From the IMG/VR virus record IMGVR_UViG_3300044637_000866, positions 1 through 36,840 of that record: 36,840 nt of DNA; one strand, written 5' to 3'. The notes below the pieces were generated by a model, which was not told the DNA's origin, ran no database searches, and saw nothing but the letters and a program-made list of their open reading frames with translations. A program made the position numbers and the translations under genes. This document shows positions 8,416-36,840 of this stretch, piece by piece (position 1 is the first letter of the stretch; each line of letters begins with the position of its first letter). The stretch is from a virus.

Positions 8416-8437
8416 GTTTGTACGTTAACATCAACTT

Positions 8438-8899: not shown

Positions 8900-8906
8900 T
8901 AATATT

Positions 8907-10474: not shown

Positions 10475-10493
10475 CCTTTTAATTTTTAAGTAT

Positions 10494-13916: not shown

Positions 13917-13925
13917 AAATGAAAG

Positions 13926-13970: not shown

Positions 13971-14008
13971 AGAAGAAAAACCACTAAACATTTGCATAGT
14001 AGCATCTT

Positions 14009-14324: not shown

Positions 14325-14326
14325 AT

Positions 14327-15013
14327 TTATTTATTTAGGGATTTTAACATTTCAATCATTTTTGGCTGTGGTGAAATATCACTCTTGTCTTTTCTATAAG
14401 AATTATGAGTGTATACTCCTGGCACAGCTTTAAGTGCATTTGCAGATACGCTCCACATATCACTTTCATTATATGTAAGAGGAATGCCATGTACTTTATT
14501 CCAGTATATCAATAACTGACGTACAGATTCAATCTGTGCATCTGTATATGCATGATAGTATATATGTCCTTTATACGGTTTTGACAATGTGCATACTTGA
14601 TCATTTGGTACTACTCTATTAACATAGTTATAGAATTTACCATCATTCTTTAAAGTTAATGGTCCCCAGTTGCATATTTCAATACCAATTGCAAGTGGAT
14701 CTAATGAACGATAAGGAACAGCCATTGCTCTAAATACATCTGGTTTAATTCCTAAGTGGTATGCCCAAAACTTAGATGAAAATGCTTGGCAAATTTCACC
14801 ATCAAATGTATCTTTTGACAAACCTTTTCCAGAAATTGTAACGCAAGTAGCAATGCGTCCTCTGTCATCAGCATCCCACATTTTAATTGTACCTGGTCCT
14901 GATGAGTTTCCAGCAGTATGGTGAAGTACAATTTGTAATTTTTTAGTTTCCTCTTTGACAAACTGTTTCTCAGAAAGAGGTACTTGTTTGATTTTTGATA
15001 AGTCTAGACTCAT
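14327..15013 (-). CDS. N-acetylmuramoyl-L-alanine amidase (endolysin)
   Basis: A 228-residue Amidase_2 zinc enzyme that cuts the bond between N-acetylmuramic acid and the stem peptide's L-Ala. Visible residues: VLHHTAG (H31/H32, first zinc His), FWAYHLG (H86), GIEICN (catalytic Glu at 112), THNSYR (H203, second zinc His) and KSDISP (D212 as third ligand, with Lys at 210). The length is that of a single-domain endolysin with no added cell-wall-binding module and no signal peptide, so release must depend on the holin. The neighbouring holin and spanin candidates confirm the lysis role. Confidence 0.93.
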   Translation of the reverse strand: MSLDLSKIKQVPLSEKQFVKEETKKLQIVLHHTAGNSSGPGTIKMWDADDRGRIATCVTISGKGLSKDTFDGEICQAFSSKFWAYHLGIKPDVFRAMAVPYRSLDPLAIGIEICNWGPLTLKNDGKFYNYVNRVVPNDQVCTLSKPYKGHIYYHAYTDAQIESVRQLLIYWNKVHGIPLTYNESDMWSVSANALKAVPGVYTHNSYRKDKSDISPQPKMIEMLKSLNK

Positions 15014-15016
15014 AAA

Positions 15017-15316
15017 TTATCTGTTTAATATTAGTTGTTTTACAGCATCTGATAGTTCACTAACATTTTTTGCTAGGTTTTTAATCTCAAGTTGTGTCAA
15101 TTCTTGAATGGCCTGATACTTTAACTGATTTTCCTGTTGTACTAACTCAATCTTTCCTTTGAGTCTTCCTAATTCTTCATTTCGCTTGGCATCGCTATCC
15201 ATTAGAAATTCAATATCTTTTCTTGCATCTAGATATGCAGTTCTTAAAAAGAATCCAAAGATGGCCATGATTGAACCAGCAATGAATAGTACTATGGTTA
15301 AAGTTGAGGTTTCCAT
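15017..15316 (-). CDS. Membrane-anchored coiled-coil protein (possible i-spanin)
   Basis: A 99-residue protein with an N-terminal transmembrane helix (TLTIVLFIAGSIMAIFGFFL, about 5-24). It is followed by a long charged helix with heptad character (ELGRLKGKIELVQQENQLKY to the end). That is the architecture of an inner-membrane spanin subunit or of a holin/antiholin-like accessory. It lies between the amidase and the lipoprotein gene and overlaps the latter by 19 bases. Without an experiment I cannot say whether it acts in outer-membrane disruption or regulates the holin. Confidence 0.7.
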   Translation of the reverse strand: METSTLTIVLFIAGSIMAIFGFFLRTAYLDARKDIEFLMDSDAKRNEELGRLKGKIELVQQENQLKYQAIQELTQLEIKNLAKNVSELSDAVKQLILNR

Positions 15317-15804
15317 TTTCCAATTGTGAGTTTAAAAAGTATGTACAATAATAAGATTACAAATGTAATTCCTCCAAGCACAGCAAAGAAGTTAACCCAC
15401 CAAGGGATATATTTTACTTTCTGAGCAGGAAGTCTTTTGATTACATCACGCGTTTTAACAATAGTAGCTCCAGGTACTTTTATGTACTGAGTTTTTACTA
15501 TGGCTGTTGATGTAAGTTTGTTATTTTTGAGGTTGTTTTTCAGCTTTACAATTTCACCATCTTTTTCAGAAAGTCTTTTAATGTAAACGTTGCCTAATGA
15601 ATCGCAGTAAAGACTATCAACAACAACAGTGGTATCACCAGGTGTAGTTATTGTTGTATCGCGATATTCAATAATTGTAACTGTGCTGTCTTTTTCAGGG
15701 CATAGACTGCAATACTTGTCTAATTTTTTTTGCAAGCGCTTCTGTACGTCACAAGACGCAAACAAAAACAGTATTACTGTAAGTAGTACAAAATATTTCT
15801 TCAT
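15298..15804 (-). CDS. Lipoprotein with C-terminal transmembrane helix (u-spanin candidate)
   Basis: 168 residues from ATG 15804 (an in-frame TTG at 15810 is rejected). A lipoprotein signal peptide ends in LFASC, with the lipidated Cys at about 18 and Asp at +2. The periplasmic part has beta-prone Thr/Val runs (TVTIIEYRDTTITTPGD) and a charged helix. A strong C-terminal transmembrane segment follows (WWVNFFAVLGGITFVILLLY), with a basic tail. One chain anchored to the outer membrane by lipid and to the inner membrane by a helix is the unimolecular spanin design known from phage T1. It would fuse or disrupt the outer membrane in the last step of lysis. It is the first gene of the - strand lysis operon. 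Confidence 0.75.
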   Translation of the reverse strand: MKKYFVLLTVILFLFASCDVQKRLQKKLDKYCSLCPEKDSTVTIIEYRDTTITTPGDTTVVVDSLYCDSLGNVYIKRLSEKDGEIVKLKNNLKNNKLTSTAIVKTQYIKVPGATIVKTRDVIKRLPAQKVKYIPWWVNFFAVLGGITFVILLLYILFKLTIGKWKPQL

Positions 15805-15983
15805 ATGCAAATTTTTGTACTCTCACCTTCCTCAATATAAGATAACACAAATATCTTAAAAAACTAGGAATATACGCACACTTTTTAAAAGTTTTTTTGT
15901 TAATTACTATTGGTATACAAATTTAAATTTACGATCTTTGTTGCCTTTCCATTTTTATTTTTTAACCTTATAATTCTCTAATT
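15805..15983. promoter_or_regulatory. Divergent intergenic region, lysis operon / nrdJ
   Basis: 179 bases without a gene, between the divergent lipoprotein gene (-) and the ribonucleotide reductase gene (+). It must hold promoters for both. On the - strand TAAATTTG (15925-15918) matches the -7 consensus TAnnTTTG, without a clear -33 TTTG. On the + strand there is a TTTG at 15896-15899 but no exact -7 partner. I looked for a cobalamin riboswitch before the B12-dependent enzyme and saw none. Confidence 0.4.
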
Positions 15984-17891
15984 ATGACAGAAACAAAAGC
16001 GAGTTCTCCTGTTGTGCCTTGGGGTCCAGTAGGGTATGTTACATACAAAAGAACATACTCTAGACCAACCAAAAATGGCAAAACAGAAGAATGGCATGAC
16101 ACTATTGAAAGAGTAGTGGATGCATGTAAAAATCAACTAGAAGTTGGATTTACAAAAACAGAAGAAGATTCTTTAAGAAGAATCATGGCAAATCTAAAAG
16201 GCACAGTAGCAGGAAGATTCTTATGGCAACTAGGTACAAAAACAGTTGACAGATTAGGATTACCATCATTGCAGAACTGTGCTTTTGTAGTTTGTGACGA
16301 ACCCATTAGACCATTTACATGGGCATTTGAAATGCTTATGTTAGGTTCAGGCGTAGGATTTAACATCCAACGTGAACATGTTTACCAAATACCTAAAGTT
16401 CTTAAGAAGGTAAAGGTAGAACGCATGGATGTAAACGATGCTGACTTTATTGTACCTGATTCAAGAGAAGGTTGGGTTGAACTTATGAGACGCGTTCTTG
16501 AAGCATCATTTGTAACAGGACAAGGATTTACGTATGCATGTCACCTTATTCGTTCAAAAGGTTCACCAATTAAAGGATTTGGTGGTGTAGCATCAGGACC
16601 ACAAGATCTAGTGTGGGGAATTGGAGAAATCAATAACATCTTAAACAGTAGAGCTGGTAAAAGACTACGTTCTATTGACTGTCTTGACATTATGAATATC
16701 ATTGGTCGCATTGTAGTTGCAGGTAACGTAAGACGTTCAGCACAGATTGCACTTGGTGATTATGATGACTTTGATTTCTTGCGTGCAAAGCGTTGGGATT
16801 TAGGTAATATTCCTAACTGGCGTGCAATGAGTAACAACTCAGTTATATGTGATGACACATCAAAATTACCAGAAGAGTTTTGGGAAGGTTATAAAGGTAA
16901 TGGTGAACCGTATGGTTTAATAAACCTTGATGCTTCACGTAGAATGGGTAGAGTTGGTGAGATTCAGTATCCTGATCCAGAAGTTATGGGTTTCAATCCA
17001 TGTGCAGAACAGTCTTTGGCTAACTTTGAGACATGTTGTTTAGCAGAAATCTATTTGCCAAACATTGAATCTTATGATGAGCTAAAAGAAGTTGCTCGCA
17101 CCTTGTACAGAATCAACAAACATTCATTATCAATCAAGTGTGCCATTAAAGAAACTGAAGATATTGTACACAAAAACATGAGAATGGGTATTGGTGTTAC
17201 AGGCTATCTTCAAGCTACTGATGAGCAGCGTTCTTGGTTATCTGATTGCTATGTATACTTACGTGCATATGATGAGGAGTACAGTAAGCAAAAAGGATTC
17301 AACCCTTCTATCAAACTTACAACTGTTAAGCCATCAGGCACACTTAGTTTATTGGCTGGTGTTACATCTGGAGCACATCCTGGTTACTCTCAGTTTTATA
17401 TACGCAGAATTAGAATGTCTTCTGACAGTCCTATTGTGAATGTATGTAGAAAAAACAATTTCCCAGTTGAATTCCAGCGTAACTTTGATGGTACTGAAGA
17501 TCACAGCACTGTGGTTGTATCATTCCCATGTAAGTTTCCAAAACACACAATTCTTGCTAATGATATGACAGCAGTAGACCAATTGAATGTAATTAAAAGA
17601 TTACAAACAGAATGGTCTGATAATGCAGTGTCTGTTACAATCTACTATCGCAAGCATGAGTTGGATGAAATTAAACAATGGCTTTCTGAGAACTATTTTA
17701 ACGTGAAGTCTGTGTCATTCTTGCTTCACAATGATCATGGTTTTGATCAGGCGCCATTAGAAGAAATCACTGAAGACAGATACAATGAACTTTCAGCATC
17801 TGTAATTCCTATTGCATCTTTTGATGATACCATCAATTTAGATGACTTAGATATTGCAGACTGCGATGGAGGAGCTTGTCCTGTTAGATAA
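15984..17891 (+). CDS. nrdJ: Adenosylcobalamin-dependent ribonucleoside-triphosphate reductase (class II)
   Basis: 635 residues. It reduces NTPs to dNTPs using adenosylcobalamin, with no small subunit and no oxygen requirement. Key residues follow the Lactobacillus leichmannii enzyme: C99 in LQNCAF, and the loop FNPCAEQS with N338, C340 (thiyl radical) and E342. C351, 11 residues after C340, is the second active-site cysteine (FETC). VKPSGTLSLLAG and SGAHPG come later. The C-terminus ends CDGGACPVR, a CX4C pair (C627, C632) in the same place from the end as the regenerating cysteines of that enzyme. The chain is about 100 residues shorter than the 739-residue model. A single gene thus supplies dNTPs for phage replication. 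It is followed directly by a terminator. Confidence 0.93.
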   Translation: MTETKASSPVVPWGPVGYVTYKRTYSRPTKNGKTEEWHDTIERVVDACKNQLEVGFTKTEEDSLRRIMANLKGTVAGRFLWQLGTKTVDRLGLPSLQNCAFVVCDEPIRPFTWAFEMLMLGSGVGFNIQREHVYQIPKVLKKVKVERMDVNDADFIVPDSREGWVELMRRVLEASFVTGQGFTYACHLIRSKGSPIKGFGGVASGPQDLVWGIGEINNILNSRAGKRLRSIDCLDIMNIIGRIVVAGNVRRSAQIALGDYDDFDFLRAKRWDLGNIPNWRAMSNNSVICDDTSKLPEEFWEGYKGNGEPYGLINLDASRRMGRVGEIQYPDPEVMGFNPCAEQSLANFETCCLAEIYLPNIESYDELKEVARTLYRINKHSLSIKCAIKETEDIVHKNMRMGIGVTGYLQATDEQRSWLSDCYVYLRAYDEEYSKQKGFNPSIKLTTVKPSGTLSLLAGVTSGAHPGYSQFYIRRIRMSSDSPIVNVCRKNNFPVEFQRNFDGTEDHSTVVVSFPCKFPKHTILANDMTAVDQLNVIKRLQTEWSDNAVSVTIYYRKHELDEIKQWLSENYFNVKSVSFLLHNDHGFDQAPLEEITEDRYNELSASVIPIASFDDTINLDDLDIADCDGGACPVR

Positions 17892-21935: not shown

Positions 21936-24900
21936 TTACTGGTTACGTTTAAGCACATCAATTCTGTAATTTGGATCAAGTATATCTCTAAAGTTTTTAA
22001 TACCAGTAAGGTCAACAATATCTTTTACAATTTTTGCATCACCTTTTTCATATGCTCCTGATTTTCTAGAATAGAATGCATCTTTCCAAATAGATTGATA
22101 CAATTCACTATCATAATCTGGATCTGCCTCTTCACCACCATTCATTGTCATGGCCATTCCATATTTAATACCATGATTTAACATTCTGATTGTTGCAGAA
22201 AATTCACGCACAAATGGTATTGCTGTCGTAAAGTTCTTAACGTATTCTTGAGAACCCTGTCCAACAGGAAACATGGATACAGTTTCACCTTTTGTACCCC
22301 AAATAACCCTGATAGCGTTACCCTCAAGCATGCTAAGTTCTTCATCATCGTCATCTCTACGTTTAACAAATGACAATAGCATCATACTAATGATTGTTAA
22401 TAGTGCCATTGCAATTGCGTCACGCCTTGCATGATGCACACGTTTTGCATAGAAGTCGCCAACATCCTCTGTTCTTATAACCTTACCTGTTTTAGGATCT
22501 TTAATGACATAAGTTTTTAGACCACCAGACATTCCCATTTTAGAAAGAGTGTTTGAACCTACCAGAAATTCTTTCATGGTATTTCCCATACCAAACAACT
22601 TCATTGATCTTGCAAATGCTCTCCAGTATCCTAATGCCATCTCAGATCCTTCCCAGTTAGGACGCAAATATCCAAATCTGTTTAGAAATTGTGGAACCAA
22701 GAATTTTCTAAAGAAGAACACCATCTTACCAAGTATTCTACTTTCAAATTCTGTTTGGTCATTCCCTGCATAGTTACCTTGTGCTCTACGCATTTCTGAA
22801 TAAACAATATTTCTTATACGTCTTTCATCTTCCTTTGTGTAGTTTACATCTTTTCTAATTACAAGATTACCATTAACATCTTTGTAATATGCTTGATGTG
22901 AAGGTATCATGATAATATTACCACTAGCATCTCTCTTGAAAGTTTTTTCACCAGTAACAGGATCAATAGACTCTATCTCCTCAAATCTATAGTTATCCAT
23001 AATTGCATACATTACTGTAACTGCAATTTCTGTATCACCTTTATCTTGAAGCATATATCCTAATTCACCAACAGATGATAACTTTTCAGCAACCCTTCTT
23101 TTTCTTGTTCCAGATGAATTTTGAAAATACTTAATGATGTCTTTTTGTGCAGGGTTCATCATTCTATAAAGCATTGTGCTTTCACTCAAATCAGAAAGTC
23201 TACCCCAGTCTTTTAAATAGTTTGCTAGAAACCCATTGTAACCATAAACTTTACCCTTAGCAAACAACCAATTCTTTTTACTATAATGATCGCTGTCATT
23301 ACCACCAGCTGCAAGAAATGCTTGAACATTACCTGAAGTGTAGTTTTTTGTTTGATTGACAATATCAAATCCAATCCTAATGAAACTTGTATACTTAAAG
23401 AAAGAATCTACCATCTTCTTCATTTTTCTACTTGCTTCTTGAGTGCTTTCAGTAATACCATATAAGTATTTACCATTTTCAAACTCAATGATTTTCAAGA
23501 GGTTATCTATTTCACTAAGTTTTGTCTCAATATCAATTTTAGTTTTTTCTCCAGTCTGTGGATCTGTCACATAGATTTCGCCTTTCAAACGATCTTTTGC
23601 TAACTGATTACGCTGAAGTCTGAGAAATTCAATAAACCCTTTTGATACAGGAGCTACTTCTTGCATTGCAATATTCATGTGTGCCTCAGTAGTCCACTTC
23701 ATAAATGACCCAACAGCATCAGTAGATTGTATTTCTTCATCAAGTTGATTAGAGAAACGCATGCGTATACGAGCACCAATATCACCATAGATATTTTCTG
23801 ACATGTCTTGTTGACCTTCAGCTTTCAAATGTTTATCTACAAATGCATTGTACTGTTTTGCAAACCCTCTACCAAATCCTTCATTTGCTATACTTTCAAC
23901 AAGACTAGCAGCAAAACCAGGAACAGTATAACCAATTGTTCTACCTTCAATACGCTTTTGCATGCCAAAGAAAATATCCATCATTGTGTTGTAGAATTCA
24001 AACATCTTAGGATTTCTCAACAAGTCAAGATATTTAGCATTTATATTTTTTGTTGGAGCTTTGGTAGGATCAATAACAAAGTGACCTTCATCTGATACAA
24101 TAATTTCTTTTGGAAGAGGAATACCATCATTGCCTTTAATAAATCCAGGATTATACGCACCTCTTTCAATTGTAAGTCTACCTGAGATGTTTAATTCTGT
24201 AACCTCTTCAGGTGTTTCTTGCAATGCTTCAATTTCTGCATTGCTAAGTTTTCTACCATCCAGTGTCCAATTACCAATACGCAAACGTTTAAGTTTGTAG
24301 TATTTAGGATTAGGCACAGTTTCCATGTACTTATCAGCAACAGTTGAAGATGGAAGTCTTTCAAAGTTAAATGACTTAGGAACCTTGTTTGCTTTTATAT
24401 CATATCCAGTTGCGATACTTTGATATTTATTGTAATGCGTTTTCTCATACCAATTTCTAAAGGAGTTTTCAACTTCACCAAATCTGCGTACAGAAAATAT
24501 TACATTGTTCTCAGCTTCTTCTATTTCATCTGCAATACCTTTTGTTCTTGCAACAGCTAAATTAGATTGAGCATTATTCATCTCATTAAACGCAGTTTGC
24601 AATAACCTATACTGTGTGTCAAACTCTTCAATGTAATTAGGGTTTAACTGGAAGGAAACAAGTTTTCTAATCTCTGCAGATATTTCTGCTACTTTTTTAC
24701 GATCTTCTTTGTCAAGTGTACTCTTTTCTGTTTTCTTACCTTCAATGATATCTTCAATCTCAGCTTCAATACCATCTAATTCTGCAATCTCTTCATCAGT
24801 AAGATATTTTGGATTAAAACGTCCTGCATTTTTGTAAGGAGCCATGATTTTTTTCTTTCTATCAATTAGCTCTTTGATTGTAGGATCACTGGAAACTATT

Positions 24901-27900
24901 TCTGAACGTTGATCATATAGCGCATTAAGCTGATCATACCACTCAGCAGTTGGTCTAGTTACTGTATTATCTTTATACCACTTGTCTAATTTCTCTGGGC
25001 TATCTGAAAAACGCACGCGTGCATTCTTTTCCATTACCCTAAAGTAATTGTCATTAGTATCAAACTCATATAAGCTGTCTAACTCATCAAGATACGCAGC
25101 ATACTCAGGACTTCTTTCTGCAGCCTCCATTCTTAACTTTTTGGCTTCTGCATCAAGTTCTTTTAGTCTATCAAAGTCAGACTCTTCAAGTAATACTTCA
25201 TTACCTCTTCCCACACTATATAGGATAACCTCTTGTTCAAGATATATTTCTTGCAACTTATCACGAATGTCTTCTGGTAATTTTAACTGAAGATTGTAAA
25301 AAGAATCAACATATGGTAGATTAGAATTTTCTAACATCCATGCAATCATTGCACGTTTATGTTCATCTCTTTCTGATTGTTTTGCTAATAGTGCATCTTT
25401 TGCTTCTTGTTCAGCTTGTGCATCAGTACCGAATTTTTCTTGATAAAGTGCATACGCTTCATAGTATTCTCTATTGAGTATTCTAAGATTTTGCTGAAAT
25501 CCTCTGTATGCGTTTTCGTACTCTTCGCTGTAAGGTTTTACATACACAAGTCTACGTTGTTGCTTTATCTCTTTTGTTTTAGGATCTTCATAAGATACAG
25601 TAATCCACTCAGACGTAAGTTTGTTTATGTCTTCTAATGAAAAACCTTGATCCTGAAGTGCACGAAGCATTCTGTCAAACTTTTGCAGTTGTGGATCTGA
25701 TAAAGTATTATATTCAGCTTGAGCTTTATGCTCTTTAAGTAATGTAGTAAATGCTGACACTGCTAAATCAGAGTTAGATGCAGAAGCAATCGCAGAATCC
25801 ATCATCCATCCTCCAAGTATTGTGTCAGAACCTTCATAAGGATTCTGCATTCCAGGATAGAATGGTGATGTATGGTCAGTAATTCCATTGATATACTTTT
25901 CCATTGCCTCTTCGCTATATTCAAATCCATTAAGCAACATTTCAATTTGCATAATGCGTTTTTCAACTCTTTGAATTTCAGCAAGAACTATATCTCCATT
26001 AGGACCCATAGCTTCTTTTACTTTTTCTTTGAAGTTCTTATTCATCAAAGAAAAGACAGAGTACTTGATTTTTTTATAGATACCTAACTTTGGATTGTTT
26101 TTAAGCATCTCAAGCTGAGCCTTAAGATTTTCTAATTCAGGTATAAGGGCTTGACGCTTTTGTTCATTTACACCAGAGAATACTTTTTCTCCAGGTGACA
26201 TTAGAACTTTAACAGCATTCATTGTACCAATACGCTTGAAGTCTGATTGAATAGACTCTACAAATATAGACAACTGTGTTAACCTTTGTCTCACAGGACT
26301 TGTTACTGATAGCTCACTACCTTCAGCAGACGCTGCTTCATTTACAACTTCATTCATGAAATCAATGATTGTTGCTAAACTTGCACTTTTATTAAATGCA
26401 ATACGCACTGACTCAAAGTTTTTACTTTGTTCTTTGCTGTCAGTTGTACCAAGATATAATTGAGTAGCTATCTTTGAAATTTGACTCAGTGTGTCTAAGT
26501 CATTTTCCATAACATTTAGCGCATTAAAGAAATTTGTTGAGTTTAACAGCACTGATGGCGATGTTGTTTTTAACTTTTCAGCAATCTGCTTTAAGTTATT
26601 TAATGTATCTCTACGTGTTTTTAATAGTTTTTCTAACTCTTTATCACGCATTGGTTTATTTTGAGCATCCTGAATTTCTTGATATGCTTTATCAATCTGA
26701 CCATTGATGACACTTTCAAGCACAGTTACAAAATCCTGCATATTTTTGTCAGTAGGATTTATGTCAAACAATTCTTCAGGTCTTTTATTTCTGATCTCTT
26801 CTTCAGTGTACTCACCTGTTGGAACCTCAATTGCTACAGCTTTTTTGAAATCTAAAACAACTTTGTTTACTGTATCAATATCATTAAACCATACACCATC
26901 AGTAGTTAAATTAACACTACGTGCTTGGTCATAATAATCTTGATCTTCAAATACATGAAGAACACTTCCTTTGTAAGATTTATTGTCATCATCAATTTGA
27001 TACATCAATGCTGATATTATTTTATTAGCAACAGGTATATCACTTTGTAATAAGATGTTTTCATATACATCCAGTTGGAGCATCCAGGTATCATACGTTG
27101 TACGTACAGGAAGTTCTCTGAACTTTTCTGCTGTACCTGGTTTGTTTCCAATTGGAAATTCTTTTAGTGCTAATCCATATAAAGCTCTATCAACATTTAC
27201 TTCTTGAGCACCTGTTAATGGGTTTCTTTCAACAAGGTATTTTACTTTCTTTGTTTTAAAGTCATAGATGTGCACCTTACCAACAGCATCAATCATTAAA
27301 ATATCTAAACGTCCAATAACCTTACTACCTGTTCTAGATGTACCAACAATAGTTACCTCTGGAAGAATGATATATCCACTTGCATTTTTAGAATTGACAT
27401 GTGACACTAAGCCCATTGCCATCTCATACATTTCTTCTTTAGAAAGTTTGTCAATATCAAATGGGTTTTTCTTTGTGTAATTCTCATACACTTTGTCAAA
27501 AAACTCTTGACTATAAACCTGAGCAATAGTTTTATTTTTAGCAATTGCCTCTTCTTGGGCAAATTCTAAAAGCTCATGCATAAAAGTACCAAACAGTTTG
27601 AAAGCTTCATATTCCTTTGGATCACCTTTGAATTCTGAGGAACCAATAAACTTAGATACACTTAATGTCTGTTCTACAGCAGTACCATTTTTAGCTGCTT
27701 CTATATTGCTTTTTAGAAATTCTTGGTATGAGTCGTTCATATCAATAAGCTTTTGTATTGTAGCTTTTTGATTTTTGTTTGCACGAAACTTCATTGTCTC
27801 TAAAACCTGACGTTGTTGTACAGCCCTTGACAATTTAAACTGATCAGATGCAAGAGAAAGTTGTTCATCCTTATCCTGAATTCTTAGATCTTTTAATATT

Positions 27901-28031
27901 TGTTTTGCCTGTTCAATTGTTGGCACTTCGTTGCCATTACGCACAAACGCAGTCATTGCATCTGCTTCACTGCTTAAGGCTATTACCAAGTCTTTCCAGG
28001 CCTGGTCATTTGGATTTGGACATGCACTCAT
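21936..28031 (-). CDS. Giant virion protein with N-terminal RecB-type PD-(D/E)XK nuclease domain
   Basis: 2031 residues. Start MSACPNPNDQAWKDLVIAL. Residues ~140-330 form an intact RecB-like nuclease site: GTFMHELLEF (H152), LPEVTI (E225), GRLDIL (D243), IYDFKTKK (D257, K259) and MLQLDVYEN (Q319, Y323). The next ~1200 residues are highly charged and helical with repeated coiled-coil stretches. A later section (around RRAQGNYAGNDQTEFES then GKMVFFFRKFLVPQFLNRFG) looks globular. A hydrophobic segment MALLTIISMMLLSFVKRR near 1875-1892, flanked by DDDDEE, could cross a membrane. It is the third gene of the giant cluster with the RNA polymerase, and in crAss-like phages such proteins are packaged. 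Likely an ejected or inner-virion protein whose nuclease may act on host or competing DNA. The function is inferred. Confidence 0.83.
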   Translation of the reverse strand: MSACPNPNDQAWKDLVIALSSEADAMTAFVRNGNEVPTIEQAKQILKDLRIQDKDEQLSLASDQFKLSRAVQQRQVLETMKFRANKNQKATIQKLIDMNDSYQEFLKSNIEAAKNGTAVEQTLSVSKFIGSSEFKGDPKEYEAFKLFGTFMHELLEFAQEEAIAKNKTIAQVYSQEFFDKVYENYTKKNPFDIDKLSKEEMYEMAMGLVSHVNSKNASGYIILPEVTIVGTSRTGSKVIGRLDILMIDAVGKVHIYDFKTKKVKYLVERNPLTGAQEVNVDRALYGLALKEFPIGNKPGTAEKFRELPVRTTYDTWMLQLDVYENILLQSDIPVANKIISALMYQIDDDNKSYKGSVLHVFEDQDYYDQARSVNLTTDGVWFNDIDTVNKVVLDFKKAVAIEVPTGEYTEEEIRNKRPEELFDINPTDKNMQDFVTVLESVINGQIDKAYQEIQDAQNKPMRDKELEKLLKTRRDTLNNLKQIAEKLKTTSPSVLLNSTNFFNALNVMENDLDTLSQISKIATQLYLGTTDSKEQSKNFESVRIAFNKSASLATIIDFMNEVVNEAASAEGSELSVTSPVRQRLTQLSIFVESIQSDFKRIGTMNAVKVLMSPGEKVFSGVNEQKRQALIPELENLKAQLEMLKNNPKLGIYKKIKYSVFSLMNKNFKEKVKEAMGPNGDIVLAEIQRVEKRIMQIEMLLNGFEYSEEAMEKYINGITDHTSPFYPGMQNPYEGSDTILGGWMMDSAIASASNSDLAVSAFTTLLKEHKAQAEYNTLSDPQLQKFDRMLRALQDQGFSLEDINKLTSEWITVSYEDPKTKEIKQQRRLVYVKPYSEEYENAYRGFQQNLRILNREYYEAYALYQEKFGTDAQAEQEAKDALLAKQSERDEHKRAMIAWMLENSNLPYVDSFYNLQLKLPEDIRDKLQEIYLEQEVILYSVGRGNEVLLEESDFDRLKELDAEAKKLRMEAAERSPEYAAYLDELDSLYEFDTNDNYFRVMEKNARVRFSDSPEKLDKWYKDNTVTRPTAEWYDQLNALYDQRSEIVSSDPTIKELIDRKKKIMAPYKNAGRFNPKYLTDEEIAELDGIEAEIEDIIEGKKTEKSTLDKEDRKKVAEISAEIRKLVSFQLNPNYIEEFDTQYRLLQTAFNEMNNAQSNLAVARTKGIADEIEEAENNVIFSVRRFGEVENSFRNWYEKTHYNKYQSIATGYDIKANKVPKSFNFERLPSSTVADKYMETVPNPKYYKLKRLRIGNWTLDGRKLSNAEIEALQETPEEVTELNISGRLTIERGAYNPGFIKGNDGIPLPKEIIVSDEGHFVIDPTKAPTKNINAKYLDLLRNPKMFEFYNTMMDIFFGMQKRIEGRTIGYTVPGFAASLVESIANEGFGRGFAKQYNAFVDKHLKAEGQQDMSENIYGDIGARIRMRFSNQLDEEIQSTDAVGSFMKWTTEAHMNIAMQEVAPVSKGFIEFLRLQRNQLAKDRLKGEIYVTDPQTGEKTKIDIETKLSEIDNLLKIIEFENGKYLYGITESTQEASRKMKKMVDSFFKYTSFIRIGFDIVNQTKNYTSGNVQAFLAAGGNDSDHYSKKNWLFAKGKVYGYNGFLANYLKDWGRLSDLSESTMLYRMMNPAQKDIIKYFQNSSGTRKRRVAEKLSSVGELGYMLQDKGDTEIAVTVMYAIMDNYRFEEIESIDPVTGEKTFKRDASGNIIMIPSHQAYYKDVNGNLVIRKDVNYTKEDERRIRNIVYSEMRRAQGNYAGNDQTEFESRILGKMVFFFRKFLVPQFLNRFGYLRPNWEGSEMALGYWRAFARSMKLFGMGNTMKEFLVGSNTLSKMGMSGGLKTYVIKDPKTGKVIRTEDVGDFYAKRVHHARRDAIAMALLTIISMMLLSFVKRRDDDDEELSMLEGNAIRVIWGTKGETVSMFPVGQGSQEYVKNFTTAIPFVREFSATIRMLNHGIKYGMAMTMNGGEEADPDYDSELYQSIWKDAFYSRKSGAYEKGDAKIVKDIVDLTGIKNFRDILDPNYRIDVLKRNQ

Positions 28032-28032: not shown

Positions 28033-28614
28033 TTATAAACACTTTATTTTATCAAGTATATCATCATTATTGTAGTTAAGACCTCGCATATTTGCAACAA
28101 GATCTCTAGCAGCTTTTACAAATTGATCTAGTTTCATTCTTTGACTGCTCTCACTATAAAGATACTCAATTACAGCGGGAGTAAGATCAAGGTTGGCCAT
28201 TTCTTCATACATATTGTAAAGAGGATTGTCAGACTCTGGATTATCAAACAGGTATTCATCAGAGTAATCTATGCCAGCTCTTCTTGCATCTTCTTCCTGA
28301 ATTGCTCTTGCTTCTGCTTCATTAAACGCTTTCAAATACTCGTTATAGTATATGGTAACTAAATCCTGACTTGGATTAAATACAACCTCTTGACCATTAG
28401 ACATCTCTCTACGATACGCAACATTACCTTCAAAAAGTTTATTGTTTCTATTTACAATACTTTCAGCAACTCTATATGCTTGAGCTTTACCACTTGGAAA
28501 AGCAGCATTACTAATAAACAATGTATCAAAAGAGGTTTGCTGAATGTTCTTTGTTACATTAGGAGCAATTGCCTTTTTGATGATTGATCTTTTTATATCA
28601 GTTCTACATTTCAT
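28033..28614 (-). CDS. Hypothetical protein between the two giant virion genes
   Basis: A 193-residue protein. A basic N-terminus (MKCRTDIKRSIIKKAIAPNV) is followed by an alpha-helical, acidic C-terminal half (EAEARAIQEEDARRAGIDYS, then DNPLYNMYEEMANLDLTPAV). No motif is recognised. Its ATG lies 2 bases after the stop of the RNA polymerase gene, and its stop lies 1 base before the ATG of the nuclease giant. The three are therefore translated from one mRNA, probably by re-initiation, and are likely made in linked amounts. It may be a connector or chaperone for the giant proteins. Confidence 0.75.
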   Translation of the reverse strand: MKCRTDIKRSIIKKAIAPNVTKNIQQTSFDTLFISNAAFPSGKAQAYRVAESIVNRNNKLFEGNVAYRREMSNGQEVVFNPSQDLVTIYYNEYLKAFNEAEARAIQEEDARRAGIDYSDEYLFDNPESDNPLYNMYEEMANLDLTPAVIEYLYSESSQRMKLDQFVKAARDLVANMRGLNYNNDDILDKIKCL

Positions 28615-28616: not shown

Positions 28617-31600
28617 TTAACAGTTATTTTCATCTGTTGGGTCAATACTTGGTCTATTATTAGGTTTAATAATGGTTCTGTTCTGAGCAGCAAGAGCAAG
28701 TATTGCTTTTCTGTTGCCATCTTCTTCACCCCACATCATCCTCTTATTAGTTGTCAAAGATATGATAGTATTTTTAGATGTTACTATGTACTCTGTATCT
28801 TTGTACTCTATTATTTTTGCAACTATATCAAGAGCTTTCATGTTTGCTTCAGCTACTGATATTTTAGATTTTGCACCTTCTAATAATGGATTATAAAGTT
28901 GCCATGTACCATTTGCATTTTGTTGAGTAACAATATACGTTGTGCCATTATAATTAACATATCTTCCTCTTTGAATTTCAGGAACTTTTGCTTCATTTTC
29001 AGGTTGAGGTTTCATGCCCAATACATTCATAAGAGCTGCAAGAGAACTTTCACCAGCATCTATTTGACTCTGACTTACATCAGTTTCTTTATCTATGCCT
29101 TCTTGTAAAATACCTGGATCATTCTTTTTTAATTGTGATTCAGAAATATCATCTGTGATAACAACATTCTCAGTAGGTTTTTTACTTGCATCTGGTTTTT
29201 TGTTTTCTTCACTAACATCAGTTCCAATCTTTTCACCAGCAGTAGTATCAACAATATTTGTGTTAAATACAATTGATTCTTTTTTATCTATGTATCGCTT
29301 ATATGTTTCAGCATTTTCTGTACTGAAAGCAATTGGACTAAGTGCTTCTGAAGCATACTGTGATGGTATTATTTTGTACTTGGCAAATGTTCCAATGTTT
29401 GAAAATGTTGTTGTACCCATGATTGAATCAAACAAGTTAGATCCAATTGATTTTCCTTTAGAAGCATTATTGTCAATACCCTGTAACACGTATGTATTTA
29501 AACCAACACGTAAGATGCTTGGGAATACAAACTCAACAGAGTCTTGTTCTGTCATGTCTTTTTGAATACCAAACATTCTACCAAGTGTTACATTTGCTTT
29601 TTGATTTTTACCAGAAAGGTTTACAGTAAACTCTGAACCTAATGCATCTGCTATATTTATACGATCTACTTTTGCAAGATCTGTACCTTCAGGAAACTGT
29701 AAATCTAACGCGTCAAGTACATAGTTCATTGCCTTAGTTTTAGCTTCAGGTAAAGACTCTTTTGTCATGTCCTGTTTTTCATCCAAGAATGCTTTTACAA
29801 TAGGTTTTGAGAAATTTGGTTTCTTAGAGTTTATTGTAAACAATACTCCTCTTGTATTATTTTTATCTCTAAACTTAGGTATCTTTCTATTGTTATTTTC
29901 TGATGCTGCAGCATATGCAATTTGATCAAACATCTCATCAAAAAACTTGATGACACCATCTTGTGATTTTTCTCCAGTATAGTTTAGCATAAAAGATTTG
30001 AAATCTTCTTCAAAGTTTTTACTCTGAACAACTGATTCAATACCTTGTATAAACTCATCAATGTAATTTGATAATGGAACTTTTAATTCTGCAGGCATAT
30101 ATGACAAGAACGAACCTTCTTTGTATTGCAATCCTGTACGTACAAGGTCATGATAGAACAAACTTTTAACAAACTGTCTTTCATCTGTACCTCCTTGATT
30201 GTATAAGAATGCGATATCATCAGCTATCTTACTTGCATATTCACCTTTGACTTTAGCTTTGCTTATCATTGATATAAATCTTTCACTTATACCTTGATAA
30301 CTTTTACCATTAAACAATACTGTTGCTGTATTCTTAGATTCAGACTGACGCAACAATTTTAAGAACTCATTGTCAGGATATTTTTCTCTAAATCTTTCTA
30401 CCTGTGTAAACAAGTCATTTGTAAACCAGTACTCAGGAGTAAATGTTCTTAGTATTACCTCATCATCAGTATCTAACAATGCTTGAATTGCTGGATTAGC
30501 TACTTTTCTAGAACCAGGATAAGTCATTTTAAACTTATTCAATGCTAAGAAACTTGTAAGAGTATTTGATATTGTCTTTGGATCTTCAAAATATCCTTTG
30601 AACGCTGTTGTTATAGGTAAAAAGAATGGTGTTCTTTCTAGGAATATTTTAGAAAACTGATCATTAGCATCATCTAGTGCTTCTTTCAAAATTGACCATA
30701 CCTGATTATCACCAAATAACTCAGATGCAGACTCTTTATCAAAAAGTTTTTCTTCATCTTTTAACTCATTGATATTGTCTCTCATCTTATCAAAAGCTAC
30801 AAGACTTGGGTTAAGTCTTTTAAACAAATTGGTAATACTAGCAGCTCTATTGATTGCCCATGTTTGTTGAGCTTGTTTTCCATAGTACATTAACAAAATG
30901 ATCTTCATTTCATTTTCAGTCAATGGTTGATCATTATCTGCATATACCATTTCAAAACCTATTGCAGATGGCGTAAGTTGATTATTTTTTAACGCATATA
31001 AACTAAGTTTCTTTGGCGCAAATCCAATCTTAACTTTAAGTGGATTTTCAAATAACACCATGTCTTTAAATGATTTTGGTGTAACAACACCTGCAGCTTT
31101 TAATCTATTAAGTGCAGATTCATCCTCTTCAATAAGTGCAGCTAGTTCTTCTTTTACTGCTTGATTGTAGAATTTATAATCTTGTTCTAGATCTTCTGAC
31201 AATGCAAACTGTGATTGCTGTACTGCTAACGCAGCTTTGCGCACCTCTGGTAAAAAGTTAAAGGCCAATGCAAACTCAGGATCAAGTCCTACACCAATCA
31301 TCGCAAGTGTGGTACTTGCGTTTACTTCATTCATTTGAAGAGCTGCAGGAATAGGATCTTTAGCACCATCAGCAAACATACCAAGTATATTACCAATTAT
31401 TGCAATAACTCTTTGATCCTTTTCATTCATTTGTCCAAATGTATCTTTCAATACTATTCTTCCTTCAAGTGTTTGATATGCCCACACTATAGCTTTGTCA
31501 GACAACTTTAAGTTGTATTGACTAGCTAATGACAAGAACTTGTTCATGACTGCTGTACGTCCAATACCATCTTTGTTCATATTGTTTTCTACCTTAGATT

Positions 31601-34600
31601 CAATCATATTGGTAGGAGTAAACAAGTTGGATTTCTTTGTAATTGCTTTAAGATCAATTCCAAACGAAGACAAGATATCTTTAAACTCTTGTGTTGATGA
31701 TCTTTGGTTTATGTATAAAAAGTTAAACACAGCCTCATTTGCAAGTATTTGCAAGCTTGCAGCAAGATTTTTATTCTGATACTTTGGTGAAACCATTTCT
31801 GAGAAACCTGGTCTGGAAAGATATTGCGACACATTACTTGGTATACCATACTTGGCAAGTGTATCCATTATTGCTTGATACTCAAATACAGAATCCAAAT
31901 AGTTTAACAGTTCTTTTGTTTCACGTTGTTTTCTTACAGACTCTTTTCTTATTGCTTTAAGATCAGCCAATTCTTTACCATAAACATTACGTGTTTTTGC
32001 AAGTTCTCTATTTTCTGGATTTTGCTCAGCTATTTCTTTTGCTTTTACATACAGTTCCTTAGACTCTTTTGTAAGTTCAAACATGTAATTTGTAAAATCT
32101 AATTGTTCTGTATATTTAGATTTTAAAGCCACTTGCGTAAACGCACCCATAAACTTTTCGTCACCAAATCCTAATGCTTCCATTACTTCAAATAATGGAC
32201 CTTCACCTGGCATTTCTATTGTGCCTTCATTTAGAAGTTCTTGTTTGCGTTGTTTTATGGCTGGTGCAATATCTTCATGTTTAGACATGTAGTGCATAAA
32301 CTCAATAAACTCACCAACTTCAGGATTCTCATATATACTATAGTCGCCATATAACGAGTAATTTCCTTTACCATTTTTATAGTATGACATCATTCTTCCA
32401 AACAATGAGTCAATATCAAAGTCAGATCCTGCCAACAAGTGTACAAAGTGTGGCACAATAATATTGTTCATTTTAGAAGAATCAGTAAAGTCAACAACTT
32501 TTAAAGCAATCATTGAACGTTTATCTTCTGTAGGAATACGTACACCAAACATTCTGGTCAAGTTATCCATATAGAACTGTTCTTGTTGTGCATTCTCAAA
32601 AAATGGTTTAGGGACAATTGCTTCTACATAGTATAACTTTGTTCCATCTGCCTGTTCTTCAACACTAATACCAAGTGGTCTAGATTTAAATCTTCTTGTA
32701 TCTTCAAATGCTTGTGGATTTTCACCAATCTCTTGCGTTGTTATTACTCTATTTTCTTGAGTGTCAAACAATACATTATAACCAAATGAACTTTCATGGA
32801 AGTTTTTAAATCCTGAAACTTTTTCATCTGTTACGTTTTTACTATACTGGGCCAATAAATAATACTCAAGAGTAGAACGTATTAGACTAAGATTTGGATT
32901 AAATACTGGAGTGCCATCTGGTTTAACAGCAAACATATCAAGAATATTCTTTGGTGCATTTTGTTGTTGTAAACTATCACGTATCATTGTAAATAATTTA
33001 CCCATGTCAAAGTCATCACCTTTTCTAAGAACTTCAGTAAAGTACAACAACCTTGCTTTTGTTGCTTGACGTAATGATAATTGATAATCATTAAGTGCAG
33101 TTTTTATATTCTGCATTGCAATGATGTCACCTTCAGAAACTGTTCTTCCTGTTTTACGTACTTCTGTTTCAATTATCTTTCTAAACTCTTCTTCATTGAT
33201 ATTAGCTGGAAGTAAAAGTTTTGACTGAACAGAATGTTTTGCTTTGTCTTTAACACCACTTGTTTCAACCTGTAAATACTTTGCACTATTTGGAACATTA
33301 AGTGCTGACATTTTAAAGTTAATGTATCCATCTTCTGTTTTTTCTGAGAAGAATACATCTACTGGAAGAAGTGTGGCATTTTTAGATGCTGTAGTATCCA
33401 TCAACTGATCAATTTGGAAAAGCTCCATTGAGTTGAGAATATTATGCATCATTTGGCGATGTGGCATTGGCCTGTAATAAGAGTGTATGTCTCTATACAA
33501 GTTTTGAATTTCAATATCTATTTTAGTTATTTGATTTTTGGCATCAGGCATTTCTGCTGCTAATTCGCGATCCTTACGTAAATCATAAACAGACATGTAT
33601 AACCCATGCAACTCATCATATGTACGAGCAGTTGCCTCATCAATTGACTCTTCTCCTTGTGGTATAATGTCAAGAATACTTACATCTGTTCTGTCAATAT
33701 AACTTTCAGATTGCTTGTGATAAACATTACGATCTGCTGTAATTGTTTTCTTAGCATTATTAACTACTTTCATTGACTCAAGATATCGTGCTTCATCTTG
33801 AGTAAGTGCTCTGTAGTGTTTAGCAACTAAGATGTACAATGCTCGATCATCTAGTCTACCTAGTGTATCATGCATATCTATCTGGTGCATCAATGATGAA
33901 ATACTTTGACCATCAAAGATTTCACGCATCATATCTGCCCATTTTATAATACGCCCATTGATATTCTCAACAGTATTACCTTTTGCTTTTTCAAAACCTT
34001 CCATTAACTCCTCACGAATATTTTCATTAGGAATTGTAAAGTCACTTTCAATTTGTTCTGCATCAAAGTATGGTCCAAATTGAGGAAACTCTTCATGGAT
34101 AAAAGCTGTAATTGTATTCATGTATGCAACCTTGTGAGTTCCATTTTTCATATTGGATCCACTTGCCACAATTTTCTTAAGACGTTTTACATAATCTTGA
34201 GCATTCTTTACATTTAATGCCATGTCACCATCCATCAACTGATTTAAATGAAGTCCATTTCTCCAGTTATTCATGAACATGTCAAACAACAATTTCTCAA
34301 TTGGTTCAATCGCTGATGCTTCATTAGTACCATGTGGTGTTCCATATGCATCTGTAAGAGATTGTTTAGCAAAACCTTCTTTAAGAGATGTTGGTAACAT
34401 GCTTGAAGAATAATACTCAGATGGCAACAATGCTGCAACAGCTGGTCTTATTTCAGCCTTCTTATCTTTTTCATTGATGGGAAGTTTCTCTATCAAACCA
34501 AGTGTTTCAAGTTTTTCCAAATATGTTTGAAACTCTTTTTGTGCATAATCATTTAATGCTGATAATAAATCAGACATGTCTATCTCTTCAAATGCAACTT

Positions 34601-36840
34601 GTTTTTTAGCCAAGTCAATTAAATCATCTCTTAGAGATTGGTTATTTGGATCATCAAAAAAGTCTTCTAATATGTTAAACCTGTATGCCCTTAAGCTTGA
34701 GTCATCAACATTTGCTGTTACATTGTCATCTTCTAATACAGCATTATACTTATTTATTAACTCATTGCTTTTACCATTTTCAAAGTTAGCTTTTAAGTCA
34801 AGTCTACGATTCCATTCACGTGATGCTCTATTGTATTCTTGATTTACAATAGAAACAAGATCTTCAACTATCTTGAGATATTTTCCTTGATAAAGCAATT
34901 GGCCTTTATCATTGGTTTGTTTTGCTTCTTTTGAAGTAAATGGTTGGTATAATGCAGATATTAAAAAGTTTGTAGATGTAGCTTCTAACTGATGGAATGA
35001 TCTTAAGTATGTAGATATTTCATTACCTCCTTTATCACGCAATACTTTTTTATCCATAAATGCCAATACTTGCAGCATATGTAAAGACCTTTCATCAACA
35101 GACTTAAAGGTTTGTCCTTTTTTAGTGACATCTCCAATACGTTGTTGTACACCACCAAACATTGCTACAGTAAAGTTGTCTAAAAACAACTGCATTTTTA
35201 CACTATCTTCAGTAGCTTCTCCTTTTAAAATTGGACCAAGTAATGCATTGTCTTCAATGAAAGATCTTAATGTATTTTCAAAATATGGATCATCAGCCAA
35301 TGCTTCCTCTAATGTCATTGTGTTTAAACGTTGACCAAGTAGCAATAATGGATTGTATTTTGTAAAACGATATATTGGTTTACCCTCAGCATTTTTTACA
35401 ACACTTGGTATTTCAGTTGGATCATATTTTACAACATATGTAGATGCCTTTTTAAGAATAGTAAGCAATCGTTTTGCATCTTTGTTTTTAGATTTTTCAT
35501 CATCTAGTATGTTTCTAATACCACTATTTGGCTTACCACTTTCAAGATAAGATGCATCTAAAACAATCTTCAAACTTCTGAAAAAGTCTTTTTCTAAATA
35601 TTGTTCTTGGCGTACAAAGTCTTCATTGACATCATAAAACTTTTGCAGTTTTGCATCAACATCAAGATTGATATTATTCTCAACCTTATTGATTCCCATC
35701 AATGATAATCGCACTAATGATTTTGGAACTCGCATTCCAATTGTAATCATAGCATTGTGAATCTCATCAGTAAGCTTTTGTAAACGCATTGTTTGACCAA
35801 CCATTCCATCAAGAATGTCTGGTGCGTTCATAAAGTTTGTGGCAAAGTTTTTAAGATATTGAACTGCTTCTTTAAACTCATCAGTATTTGCGTCTGTTGA
35901 ATGTTTCTTAATGAATCCTGAAATGATATCATTACGTTTTTTAGTAACATCTGCATCAACAACCTTATCAAATACTCTAAAGTTTACAGACTCAGAACGT
36001 AACAATTCTTCACCAGACGTGATGTCTTCCATGTTAATCTTACGTGGGGTAGACACATTGAACATCACATTATTCAACTCAACACCATGCAATACTTCTA
36101 CAATAAGATTTAGTAATTGCTTATTGGTTTGTGCAACACCATTTGAGTCTGCTTTTGTACGTGTTTGTATTTCATTAAATATTGTTTGAAGATCTTTACC
36201 CACTTGTGTGTATCCATCTTCAATCATTTGCTCTGACATTACACCAATACTATCAATGATATTTTTTGGATTAATGCCAGCTGTTATTTTTAAAAGCGTA
36301 GGGAATAACACTTGTCCATCAATCATGCGTGGAAAGTATATTCCATTCTTTTCATCAAATTGATCACTTCTAAGAGTAGAAAAGAATCTTCTTATTTGAG
36401 CTACATAAGAATCCATACGATTGTATTCTGCCATTCCAGAATCAAAGTCATTGCTTTCTAATTCTTCCTGTGCTGATACGCGCTCATCATCTTGTACCTC
36501 AGTTGCAGTTTCACCATTAAATGTATTTTCTACTTCCTCTGAATCTAACGTAAACTCATCATTTTCTCTTAGTATTTGTACACTATTAGCTTTAGTATAC
36601 TTGTCTTTTACCAATCGTTTCAATGTTTCAAAAGAGTATTGACCCATAGTGTTGTCTATAACTTCACCATTGATTAGTCTTATCTTATTTACGTTAGCCT
36701 TGCTGTCATACTTTGAATCACCAGTAAGGTTGATATCATTTACATTTAAACCTTTCATTCTTGCACCAAGAATAAATCTGTAAGATGATATTAATGGTCC
36801 ATAGTCTTTTTCAATTTGTTCTCTTGCTGCAGGATTTTGC
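28617..36840 (-). CDS. Giant single-chain virion RNA polymerase (5'-truncated by window end)
   Basis: At least 2740 residues; numbering is from the first in-window ATG at 36758. The frame stays open to the window end (...YGPLISSYRFILGARMKG), so the true start is outside. The catalytic loop DFDIDSLFG (D1446, D1448, D1450) is the DxDxD magnesium site of two-barrel RNA polymerases. RIPTEDKRSMIALKVVDF, about 40 residues before it, matches the RxPT region that precedes NADFDGD in beta'. A first barrel may lie ~280 residues earlier around TSGVKDKAK (K1170). The C-terminal ~300 residues hold a low-complexity linker and two repeated beta units (GRYVNYNGTTYIVTQQ; IIEYKDTEYIVTSK). Related crAss-like enzymes (phi14:2 gp66) are packaged and transcribe early genes. 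Confidence 0.87.
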   Translation of the reverse strand, partial: QNPAAREQIEKDYGPLISSYRFILGARMKGLNVNDINLTGDSKYDSKANVNKIRLINGEVIDNTMGQYSFETLKRLVKDKYTKANSVQILRENDEFTLDSEEVENTFNGETATEVQDDERVSAQEELESNDFDSGMAEYNRMDSYVAQIRRFFSTLRSDQFDEKNGIYFPRMIDGQVLFPTLLKITAGINPKNIIDSIGVMSEQMIEDGYTQVGKDLQTIFNEIQTRTKADSNGVAQTNKQLLNLIVEVLHGVELNNVMFNVSTPRKINMEDITSGEELLRSESVNFRVFDKVVDADVTKKRNDIISGFIKKHSTDANTDEFKEAVQYLKNFATNFMNAPDILDGMVGQTMRLQKLTDEIHNAMITIGMRVPKSLVRLSLMGINKVENNINLDVDAKLQKFYDVNEDFVRQEQYLEKDFFRSLKIVLDASYLESGKPNSGIRNILDDEKSKNKDAKRLLTILKKASTYVVKYDPTEIPSVVKNAEGKPIYRFTKYNPLLLLGQRLNTMTLEEALADDPYFENTLRSFIEDNALLGPILKGEATEDSVKMQLFLDNFTVAMFGGVQQRIGDVTKKGQTFKSVDERSLHMLQVLAFMDKKVLRDKGGNEISTYLRSFHQLEATSTNFLISALYQPFTSKEAKQTNDKGQLLYQGKYLKIVEDLVSIVNQEYNRASREWNRRLDLKANFENGKSNELINKYNAVLEDDNVTANVDDSSLRAYRFNILEDFFDDPNNQSLRDDLIDLAKKQVAFEEIDMSDLLSALNDYAQKEFQTYLEKLETLGLIEKLPINEKDKKAEIRPAVAALLPSEYYSSSMLPTSLKEGFAKQSLTDAYGTPHGTNEASAIEPIEKLLFDMFMNNWRNGLHLNQLMDGDMALNVKNAQDYVKRLKKIVASGSNMKNGTHKVAYMNTITAFIHEEFPQFGPYFDAEQIESDFTIPNENIREELMEGFEKAKGNTVENINGRIIKWADMMREIFDGQSISSLMHQIDMHDTLGRLDDRALYILVAKHYRALTQDEARYLESMKVVNNAKKTITADRNVYHKQSESYIDRTDVSILDIIPQGEESIDEATARTYDELHGLYMSVYDLRKDRELAAEMPDAKNQITKIDIEIQNLYRDIHSYYRPMPHRQMMHNILNSMELFQIDQLMDTTASKNATLLPVDVFFSEKTEDGYINFKMSALNVPNSAKYLQVETSGVKDKAKHSVQSKLLLPANINEEEFRKIIETEVRKTGRTVSEGDIIAMQNIKTALNDYQLSLRQATKARLLYFTEVLRKGDDFDMGKLFTMIRDSLQQQNAPKNILDMFAVKPDGTPVFNPNLSLIRSTLEYYLLAQYSKNVTDEKVSGFKNFHESSFGYNVLFDTQENRVITTQEIGENPQAFEDTRRFKSRPLGISVEEQADGTKLYYVEAIVPKPFFENAQQEQFYMDNLTRMFGVRIPTEDKRSMIALKVVDFTDSSKMNNIIVPHFVHLLAGSDFDIDSLFGRMMSYYKNGKGNYSLYGDYSIYENPEVGEFIEFMHYMSKHEDIAPAIKQRKQELLNEGTIEMPGEGPLFEVMEALGFGDEKFMGAFTQVALKSKYTEQLDFTNYMFELTKESKELYVKAKEIAEQNPENRELAKTRNVYGKELADLKAIRKESVRKQRETKELLNYLDSVFEYQAIMDTLAKYGIPSNVSQYLSRPGFSEMVSPKYQNKNLAASLQILANEAVFNFLYINQRSSTQEFKDILSSFGIDLKAITKKSNLFTPTNMIESKVENNMNKDGIGRTAVMNKFLSLASQYNLKLSDKAIVWAYQTLEGRIVLKDTFGQMNEKDQRVIAIIGNILGMFADGAKDPIPAALQMNEVNASTTLAMIGVGLDPEFALAFNFLPEVRKAALAVQQSQFALSEDLEQDYKFYNQAVKEELAALIEEDESALNRLKAAGVVTPKSFKDMVLFENPLKVKIGFAPKKLSLYALKNNQLTPSAIGFEMVYADNDQPLTENEMKIILLMYYGKQAQQTWAINRAASITNLFKRLNPSLVAFDKMRDNINELKDEEKLFDKESASELFGDNQVWSILKEALDDANDQFSKIFLERTPFFLPITTAFKGYFEDPKTISNTLTSFLALNKFKMTYPGSRKVANPAIQALLDTDDEVILRTFTPEYWFTNDLFTQVERFREKYPDNEFLKLLRQSESKNTATVLFNGKSYQGISERFISMISKAKVKGEYASKIADDIAFLYNQGGTDERQFVKSLFYHDLVRTGLQYKEGSFLSYMPAELKVPLSNYIDEFIQGIESVVQSKNFEEDFKSFMLNYTGEKSQDGVIKFFDEMFDQIAYAAASENNNRKIPKFRDKNNTRGVLFTINSKKPNFSKPIVKAFLDEKQDMTKESLPEAKTKAMNYVLDALDLQFPEGTDLAKVDRINIADALGSEFTVNLSGKNQKANVTLGRMFGIQKDMTEQDSVEFVFPSILRVGLNTYVLQGIDNNASKGKSIGSNLFDSIMGTTTFSNIGTFAKYKIIPSQYASEALSPIAFSTENAETYKRYIDKKESIVFNTNIVDTTAGEKIGTDVSEENKKPDASKKPTENVVITDDISESQLKKNDPGILQEGIDKETDVSQSQIDAGESSLAALMNVLGMKPQPENEAKVPEIQRGRYVNYNGTTYIVTQQNANGTWQLYNPLLEGAKSKISVAEANMKALDIVAKIIEYKDTEYIVTSKNTIISLTTNKRMMWGEEDGNRKAILALAAQNRTIIKPNNRPSIDPTDENNC

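Follow-up and report, generated by a model that had tools for sequence, protein, structure and literature searches.

Paired terminal cysteines at cargo protein junctions suggest a disulfide-linked thread around the virion RNA polymerase of crAss-like phages

In crAss-like phages, the virion RNA polymerase (RNAP) and its two large partner proteins, here called A and B, were found to be almost free of cysteine, save for a single residue close to each of the ends that face another member of the set. This pattern was seen in dozens of lineages, and from it we infer both a bond between the facing ends and a role for that bond; on the simplest reading, which we consider quite likely, terminal disulfides connect the cargo proteins head to tail into one thread. 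The window, that is, the whole stretch of DNA analysed, is a 36,840-base virus fragment in IMG/VR (IMGVR_UViG_3300044637_000866). Its RNAP is a fresh member of a known enzyme family, and it is the cysteine linkage that appears to be new. A literature search for terminal cysteines or disulfides in crAss-like RNAPs or ejection proteins found no report, a prior mention in the phi14:2 structure paper being possible. The earlier note on this DNA had recognized the polymerase but missed the terminal-cysteine pattern.

The RNAP polypeptide is encoded on the minus strand at 28617–36839, in a giant frame of 2,740 codons that is stop-free up to the window edge and, as had been noted, runs past it. Judged by sequence comparison and a structure model, this frame is the C-terminal two thirds of a virion RNAP of about 4,004 residues, from an environmental, uncultured crAss-like phage. 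The full length was taken from the loci L006 and L008; in contigs with a 95–98% identical protein the complete gene has 4,004 codons, and by comparison with such near-identical contigs the N-terminal 1,264 residues are missing from the window. The size of at least 2740 residues proposed earlier was therefore a correct lower bound but an incomplete figure. The protein is indeed larger than the phi14:2 enzyme (2,180 aa), as was also proposed, but this is not unusual, as crAss-like RNAPs in GenBank reach 4,070–4,620 residues (p-crAssphage gp44, 4,070 aa; crAss002 gp33, 4,245; cr271_1, 4,620). A record size for the window RNAP was rejected because larger homologues are known.

The strong identification of the RNAP came only from profile–profile and fold comparison. 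In tblastn, catalytic subunits of crAss-like RNAPs matched the active-site region at 25–30% identity. No relevant hit for the RNAP came from phmmer or profile searches run directly on PDB sequences, PHROGs and Pfam did not recognize it, and relatives were not found in the genome_contigs scan or in the viral_contigs scan with the p-crAssphage core. A family profile of 19 sequences was aligned by hhalign with phi14:2 gp077 over 1,255 columns (E 3.6e-35), spanning the region of both barrels, with RIP[TN]...DFDID in register and conserved lysine segments at the expected first-barrel position. The structural comparison with the phi14:2 enzyme around DFDID that the earlier note had suggested was run on the core, residues 860–2000 (30840–34262, minus strand). 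The AlphaFold2 model (pLDDT 74, pTM 0.53) had as its top PDB match 6vr4, the phi14:2 enzyme (Foldseek E 2.2e-11, next match E 0.4; VIA Z 15.3); the match covers model residues 21–1141, and the resemblance was judged on the whole core, not barrel by barrel. Sequence, profile alignment, and fold thus agree with the first reading of a giant crAss-like RNAP with both barrels in one chain. The view that most of the protein has no known role did not hold for the flanks, since fragment residues 458–2087 align with 514–1838 of phi14:2 gp077. In a separate tblastn match, residues 2625–2716 of the RNAP shared 40% identity with a segment of a protein annotated as hypothetical in Alteromonas phage vB_AmeP_R8W; these residues fall in a C-terminal extension that is absent from the lineage L011.

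The catalytic metal-binding motif of the second double-psi barrel, DFDID, is encoded at 32409–32423 on the minus strand. It begins at fragment residue 1473 (1446 if numbered from the ATG at 36758, and 2737 in the complete protein), is the sole DxDxD in the RNAP fragment, and its D-x-D-x-D is invariant in relatives. The RIPT segment said to lie about 40 residues ahead of it is likewise encoded, at residue 1434 (32529–32540, minus strand), with a spacing of 39 residues. Because every row of the 19-sequence alignment of relatives, which extends down to 37% identity, preserves R-I-P-T-E-D-K-R-S-M and D-[FL]-D-[IV]-D, these motifs are not due to chance. Two further minus-strand segments with conserved lysines are candidates for the first barrel: TTASKN (residues 1149–1154, 33378–33395), which supplies a candidate first-barrel lysine and aligns with the DGVKVG segment of phi14:2 gp077, and the lysine-rich QVETSGVKDKAKHSVQSK (residues 1190–1207, 33219–33272), placed by alignment with relatives and phi14:2 gp077. 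The active-site residues of the window RNAP are intact in the sequence, and the enzyme is predicted to transcribe early genes. In the RNAP frames of L032, L033, and L034, the catalytic motif is DLDID in place of DFD[IV]D.

Homologues and gene order suggest that the RNAP is packaged in the virion. Phi14:2 gp076–gp078 are annotated as structural from MS/MS, and the crAss001 homologues gp47, gp49, and gp50 were detected in virions by mass spectrometry (PMC10172136). In a near-identical contig of 119 kb (G001), the RNAP gene comes after those for portal, capsid, and tail and shares their strand, and the terminase (TerL), portal, and major capsid protein (MCP) are homologous to those of crAss001 and Flavobacterium phage Fpv3; a phi14:2 MCP query was unmatched in ten related contigs. 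The plus strand of the window (1357–17891) carries a replication module in a crAss-like layout, with genes for a helicase, UDG, DnaB, Sak4, primase, exonuclease, DNA polymerase, and class II RNR. The genome is of the Crassvirales type, as seen from the TerL, portal, and MCP homology and from the opposed replication and structural/transcription modules. Fpv3 is about as close as Crassvirales to the window lineage. Earlier work (PMC7886860) described large multidomain proteins of the transcription block in the crAss-like group, some of which contain a PD-(D/E)XK domain.

The cargo series of the window family runs from A (1,932 aa, outside the window) through RNAP (4,004) and a link protein (193) to B (2,031), an order that is fixed. 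The three proteins seen in the window are all encoded on the minus strand. The link protein (28033–28614) has exactly two cysteines, at residues 3 and 192, and B (21936–28031), the last protein of the chain, matches crAss002 gp33, crAss001 gp49, and phi14:2 gp076 in its C-terminal part. At the N terminus of B lies a PD-(D/E)XK nuclease-like domain (27159–27614) similar to crAss001 gp47 residues 1719–1815, and the N-terminal third of the RNAP contains a zincin domain (HEAFH), for which L006 residues 1004–1178 correspond to gp47 2102–2293, the end of gp47 in crAss001. The only cysteine of the RNAP fragment is its last residue (...DENNC*, 28620–28622), at the junction with the link, whose N-terminal cysteine (MKC, 28606–28608) faces the RNAP. 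At the following junction, the C-terminal cysteine of the link (...KIKCL*, 28039–28041) is met by the only cysteine of B, residue 4 (MSAC, 28020–28022), which faces the link. The window therefore holds four cysteines in 4,964 residues of the series, all at junction ends. In the whole four-protein series of L006 and L008 (8,160 residues in L006), the six cysteines occupy the 6/6 junction ends, with none at the two outer ends. The last 56 residues of the link, including KIKCL, are 46% identical to the RNAP end of L011, which has no link; this tail stays with the junction to B. The ends of the link could not be placed from its AlphaFold2 model, which was of low quality (pLDDT 53).

Two scans, with phi14:2 and crAss001 proteins as queries, yielded 142 loci, and these, together with the window family, were clustered at 70% identity into 79 lineages. 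Starts were taken as the first ATG, and a terminal cysteine was scored within 12 residues of the end. Junction-facing ends carried a cysteine in 226 cases out of 234, against 6 of the 117 outer ends (79 lineages less than 70% identical; Fisher p 3e-73, not corrected for phylogeny). Total cysteine content was exactly four in 21 of 28 three-protein lineages, two in 8 of 15 two-protein lineages, and zero in one-protein lineages. In keeping with the latter, five all-fused proteins of 5,220–5,639 aa have no cysteine, and the three that were mapped have the order A–RNAP–B, as the cysteine polarity predicts. In part of the lineages (crAss001-like and gut groups), internal cysteines number from several to 40, with the terminal ones still present; because of these gut lineages, the strict totals hold in part of the family only. 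Internal cysteines made up 0.057% of the residues of the block proteins, and the rest of G001 had a cysteine content of 1.3%. Among control ORFs of the same loci, cysteine content was 0.85%, a terminal cysteine was present at 7.5% of N ends and 12.9% of C ends, and none of 24 adjacent pairs had both.

The isolates phi14:2, crAss001, and DAC15 obey the same rule, as do an Azobacteroides phage, Suoliviridae cr118_1, and Flavobacterium phage Fpv3. In phi14:2, for example, gp078 ends in ...NTIC (one cysteine in 1,797 residues), gp077 begins with MACK and ends in ...QECK (two in 2,180), and gp076 begins with MSCK (one in 1,421). The phi17:2 (epsilon group) region offered nothing useful for the cysteine test.

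Gene fusions and additional breaks follow the same logic. Proteins in which RNAP and B are fused retain the N-terminal cysteine only, while fusions of A and RNAP retain the C-terminal one only; what is lost on fusion is precisely the pair of the junction concerned, which ties the cysteines to junctions. Conversely, each additional break adds a pair, and the extra links of 193 aa (window), 665 aa (L022), and 754 aa (L129) carry both cysteines. No terminal cysteine occurs in small ORFs that merely separate chain genes (163 aa in L111, 157 aa in L118). When A is on the opposite strand, its C-terminal cysteine is present in 8 of 8 cases, so the cysteines follow the proteins and not the gene neighborhood. 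For two lineages with a cysteine at the RNAP start but no adjacent A, a displaced A was predicted, and gp47 homologues were then found, one elsewhere in the same genome and the other in a sister record of the other lineage, with the ends ...GECL* and ...ITCG*. A nucleotide constraint at gene overlaps was also considered as the source of the terminal cysteines and rejected, since opposite-strand or distant A genes keep the cysteine and outer ends are without it; both TGT and TGC codons are in use.

On supported branches, changes in the A|RNAP configuration gave three pairs that agree with the rule, none that disagree, and two with no difference, and both pairs available for RNAP|B agree; with so few independent changes (five pairs and two pairs), a sign test has no power. 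The two mismatching A|RNAP rows are the lineages whose A later turned up elsewhere. The other deviations were mostly broken RNAP frames (L089, L094, L101), a cysteine of A at position −18 (L091), a likely wrong start call (L099), and truncation of the upstream gene at the edge of the locus (L037, L188). In L089/L090, L094, and L101, the RNAP frame is interrupted after the catalytic motif, by a frameshift, an intron, or an assembly error. The annotated starts of L014 (crAss002 gp33) and L040 (the giant ORF of cr110_1) are probably too far upstream, and an internal M-S-C, 32 codons downstream in L014 and 14 in L040, matches the conserved RNAP start.

A fuller scheme, which we regard as somewhat probable, is that of a protein train released by redox change, in which disulfides between C-terminal and N-terminal cysteines secure ordered passage through the tail, are reduced in the host, and are interchangeable with gene fusion over evolution. 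The paired cysteines would form disulfides once the virion meets an oxidizing environment, turning the separate gene products into one covalent thread equivalent to the single chain of 5,200–5,600 residues of some relatives. This thread would leave the narrow tail in order, in equal numbers, and partly unfolded, with A first if ejection runs from N to C, and would cross the envelope without internal cysteines liable to misoxidize. The host cytoplasm would then reduce the bonds, allowing the proteins to separate and the RNAP to refold and transcribe early genes. The loss of internal cysteines fits passage through an oxidizing periplasm and refolding in a reducing cytoplasm. That many gut hosts are anaerobic counts against disulfides as regards the timing of oxidation. 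In crAss001, disulfides were seen by cryo-EM in the tail and vertex, and the cargo is thought to pass constrictions of under 50 Å partly unfolded; the cargo proteins were not resolved, and the disulfides mentioned in the text concern other proteins only (PMC10172136). The mass spectrometry in that study covered a reduced and a non-reduced sample. For crAss001 we calculated the disulfide-linked tryptic peptides expected at the two junctions: gp47 CNS with gp50 CITTNSTIEELAAK, of monoisotopic mass 1812.823, and gp50 ICGANTLYEL with gp49 CAIIPQVR, of mass 1992.017. The three crAss001 proteins joined in this way would have about 690 kDa (262.5 + 276.9 + 154.5).

The least certain step is ordered ejection, as opposed to co-packaging or complex stability. 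A real linkage might instead serve stoichiometric co-packaging or an intracellular polymerase complex, which is possible, though we lean against it. A, RNAP, and B are all conserved, and by volume the three crAss001 proteins could be present in equal copy numbers (PMC10172136), which would suit co-packaging; the scarcity of internal cysteines, however, fits passage through an oxidizing periplasm, and the ejected N4 vRNAP, gp51, and gp52 are also without cysteine. As for an intracellular complex, the reducing cytoplasm would open the bonds. Nor need the cysteines pair with each other as disulfides: at docking ends they might bind a metal or make some other contact, such as a zinc site or a thiol-dependent clamp, and this would likewise give pairing at junctions and loss on fusion. 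We consider this unlikely, as there is one cysteine per side, with no conserved histidine or second cysteine nearby in the ends listed, and a typical zinc site has four ligands. Moreover, disulfides are already documented in crassvirus virions (PMC10172136).

Two further accounts do without any linkage. That the window encodes an ordinary crAss-like virion RNAP whose terminal cysteine is incidental would agree with its catalytic and genomic features, all of which fit the known family, but we find it highly improbable given the excess at junction ends (226/234 versus 6/117 at outer ends), the zero cysteines of the five all-fused proteins, the inserted links that carry both cysteines, and the correct prediction of the displaced A genes. 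Termini are a common site of sorting signals, and the cysteines could for that reason be packaging or processing signals of the individual proteins; this we give very little credence, since the all-fused proteins lack them and the first and last proteins have them on the inner side only.

Among known systems, the virion RNAP of phi14:2 (Crassvirales; gp077 in KC821624, "gp66" in structural work, PDB 6vr4) is the nearest to that of the window. It is likewise a virion protein with RIPx and DFDID in a single chain, gives the 1,255 aligned columns and the best structural match, and has only two cysteines, one per end (MACK..., ...QECK). It differs in its length (2,180 aa versus 4,004); proper to the window family are an N-terminal third that is zincin-like and falls outside the window, a longer C terminus, and the 193-aa link before B. 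The RNAPs p-crAssphage gp44 and crAss002 gp33 (Intestiviridae) are also giants (4,070–4,245 aa) with a homologous catalytic core and an N-terminal MSC; in these, RNAP is fused to B with no cysteine pair there, while in the window B stands alone and the fusion is on the upstream side of RNAP. In the crAss001 series gp47–gp50–gp49, as in the window, A, RNAP, and B are separate, with zincin and PD-(D/E)XK domains and the same terminal cysteines. However, both domains are in A in crAss001, whereas the window family has the zincin on its RNAP and the PD-(D/E)XK domain on B, and crAss001 gp47 is on the opposite strand.

The coliphage N4 (Schitoviridae) also ejects a giant RNAP, gp50, with the co-packaged proteins gp51 and gp52. 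The N4 vRNAP has a T7-like RNAP fold, and the N4 proteins, unlike those of the window, are without terminal cysteines and so give no sign of such linkage. In the N4 locus (L196, 4524–17524), gp50 (3,500 aa), gp51 (644 aa), and gp52 (150 aa) have zero cysteines, and ejected phage proteins in general may be marked by avoidance of cysteine.

CrAss-like phages, which rank with the most abundant human gut viruses, and N4-like phages share the problem of moving proteins of 250–450 kDa out of the head through a channel of less than 50 Å while keeping their order and number correct. For crAss-like phages, the cysteine rule would be a concrete and cheaply testable answer, and would explain why the cargo genes split and fuse freely. 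From it one can predict, genome by genome, the proteins that travel together and their sequence in the thread, and it would mark as cargo proteins of unknown function such as the 193-aa link.

Two late proteins of G001 (69743–74542, 1,599 aa; 59208–61886, 892 aa) have no cysteine, termini included, and the same was observed for the "NRY" proteins of about 600 aa present in many loci; all of these may be unlinked cargo. Finally, in Leptolyngbya phage Lbo-JY46 (L198, 3693–16599), the only cysteine of a 1,552-aa protein is its last residue (...VNC*), and the only one of the next protein, of 2,748 aa, is residue 4 (MSNC), the C-terminal part of this second protein resembling B of the window. By the sequences of its termini, this cyanophage follows the same cysteine rule outside the phages of Bacteroidetes.
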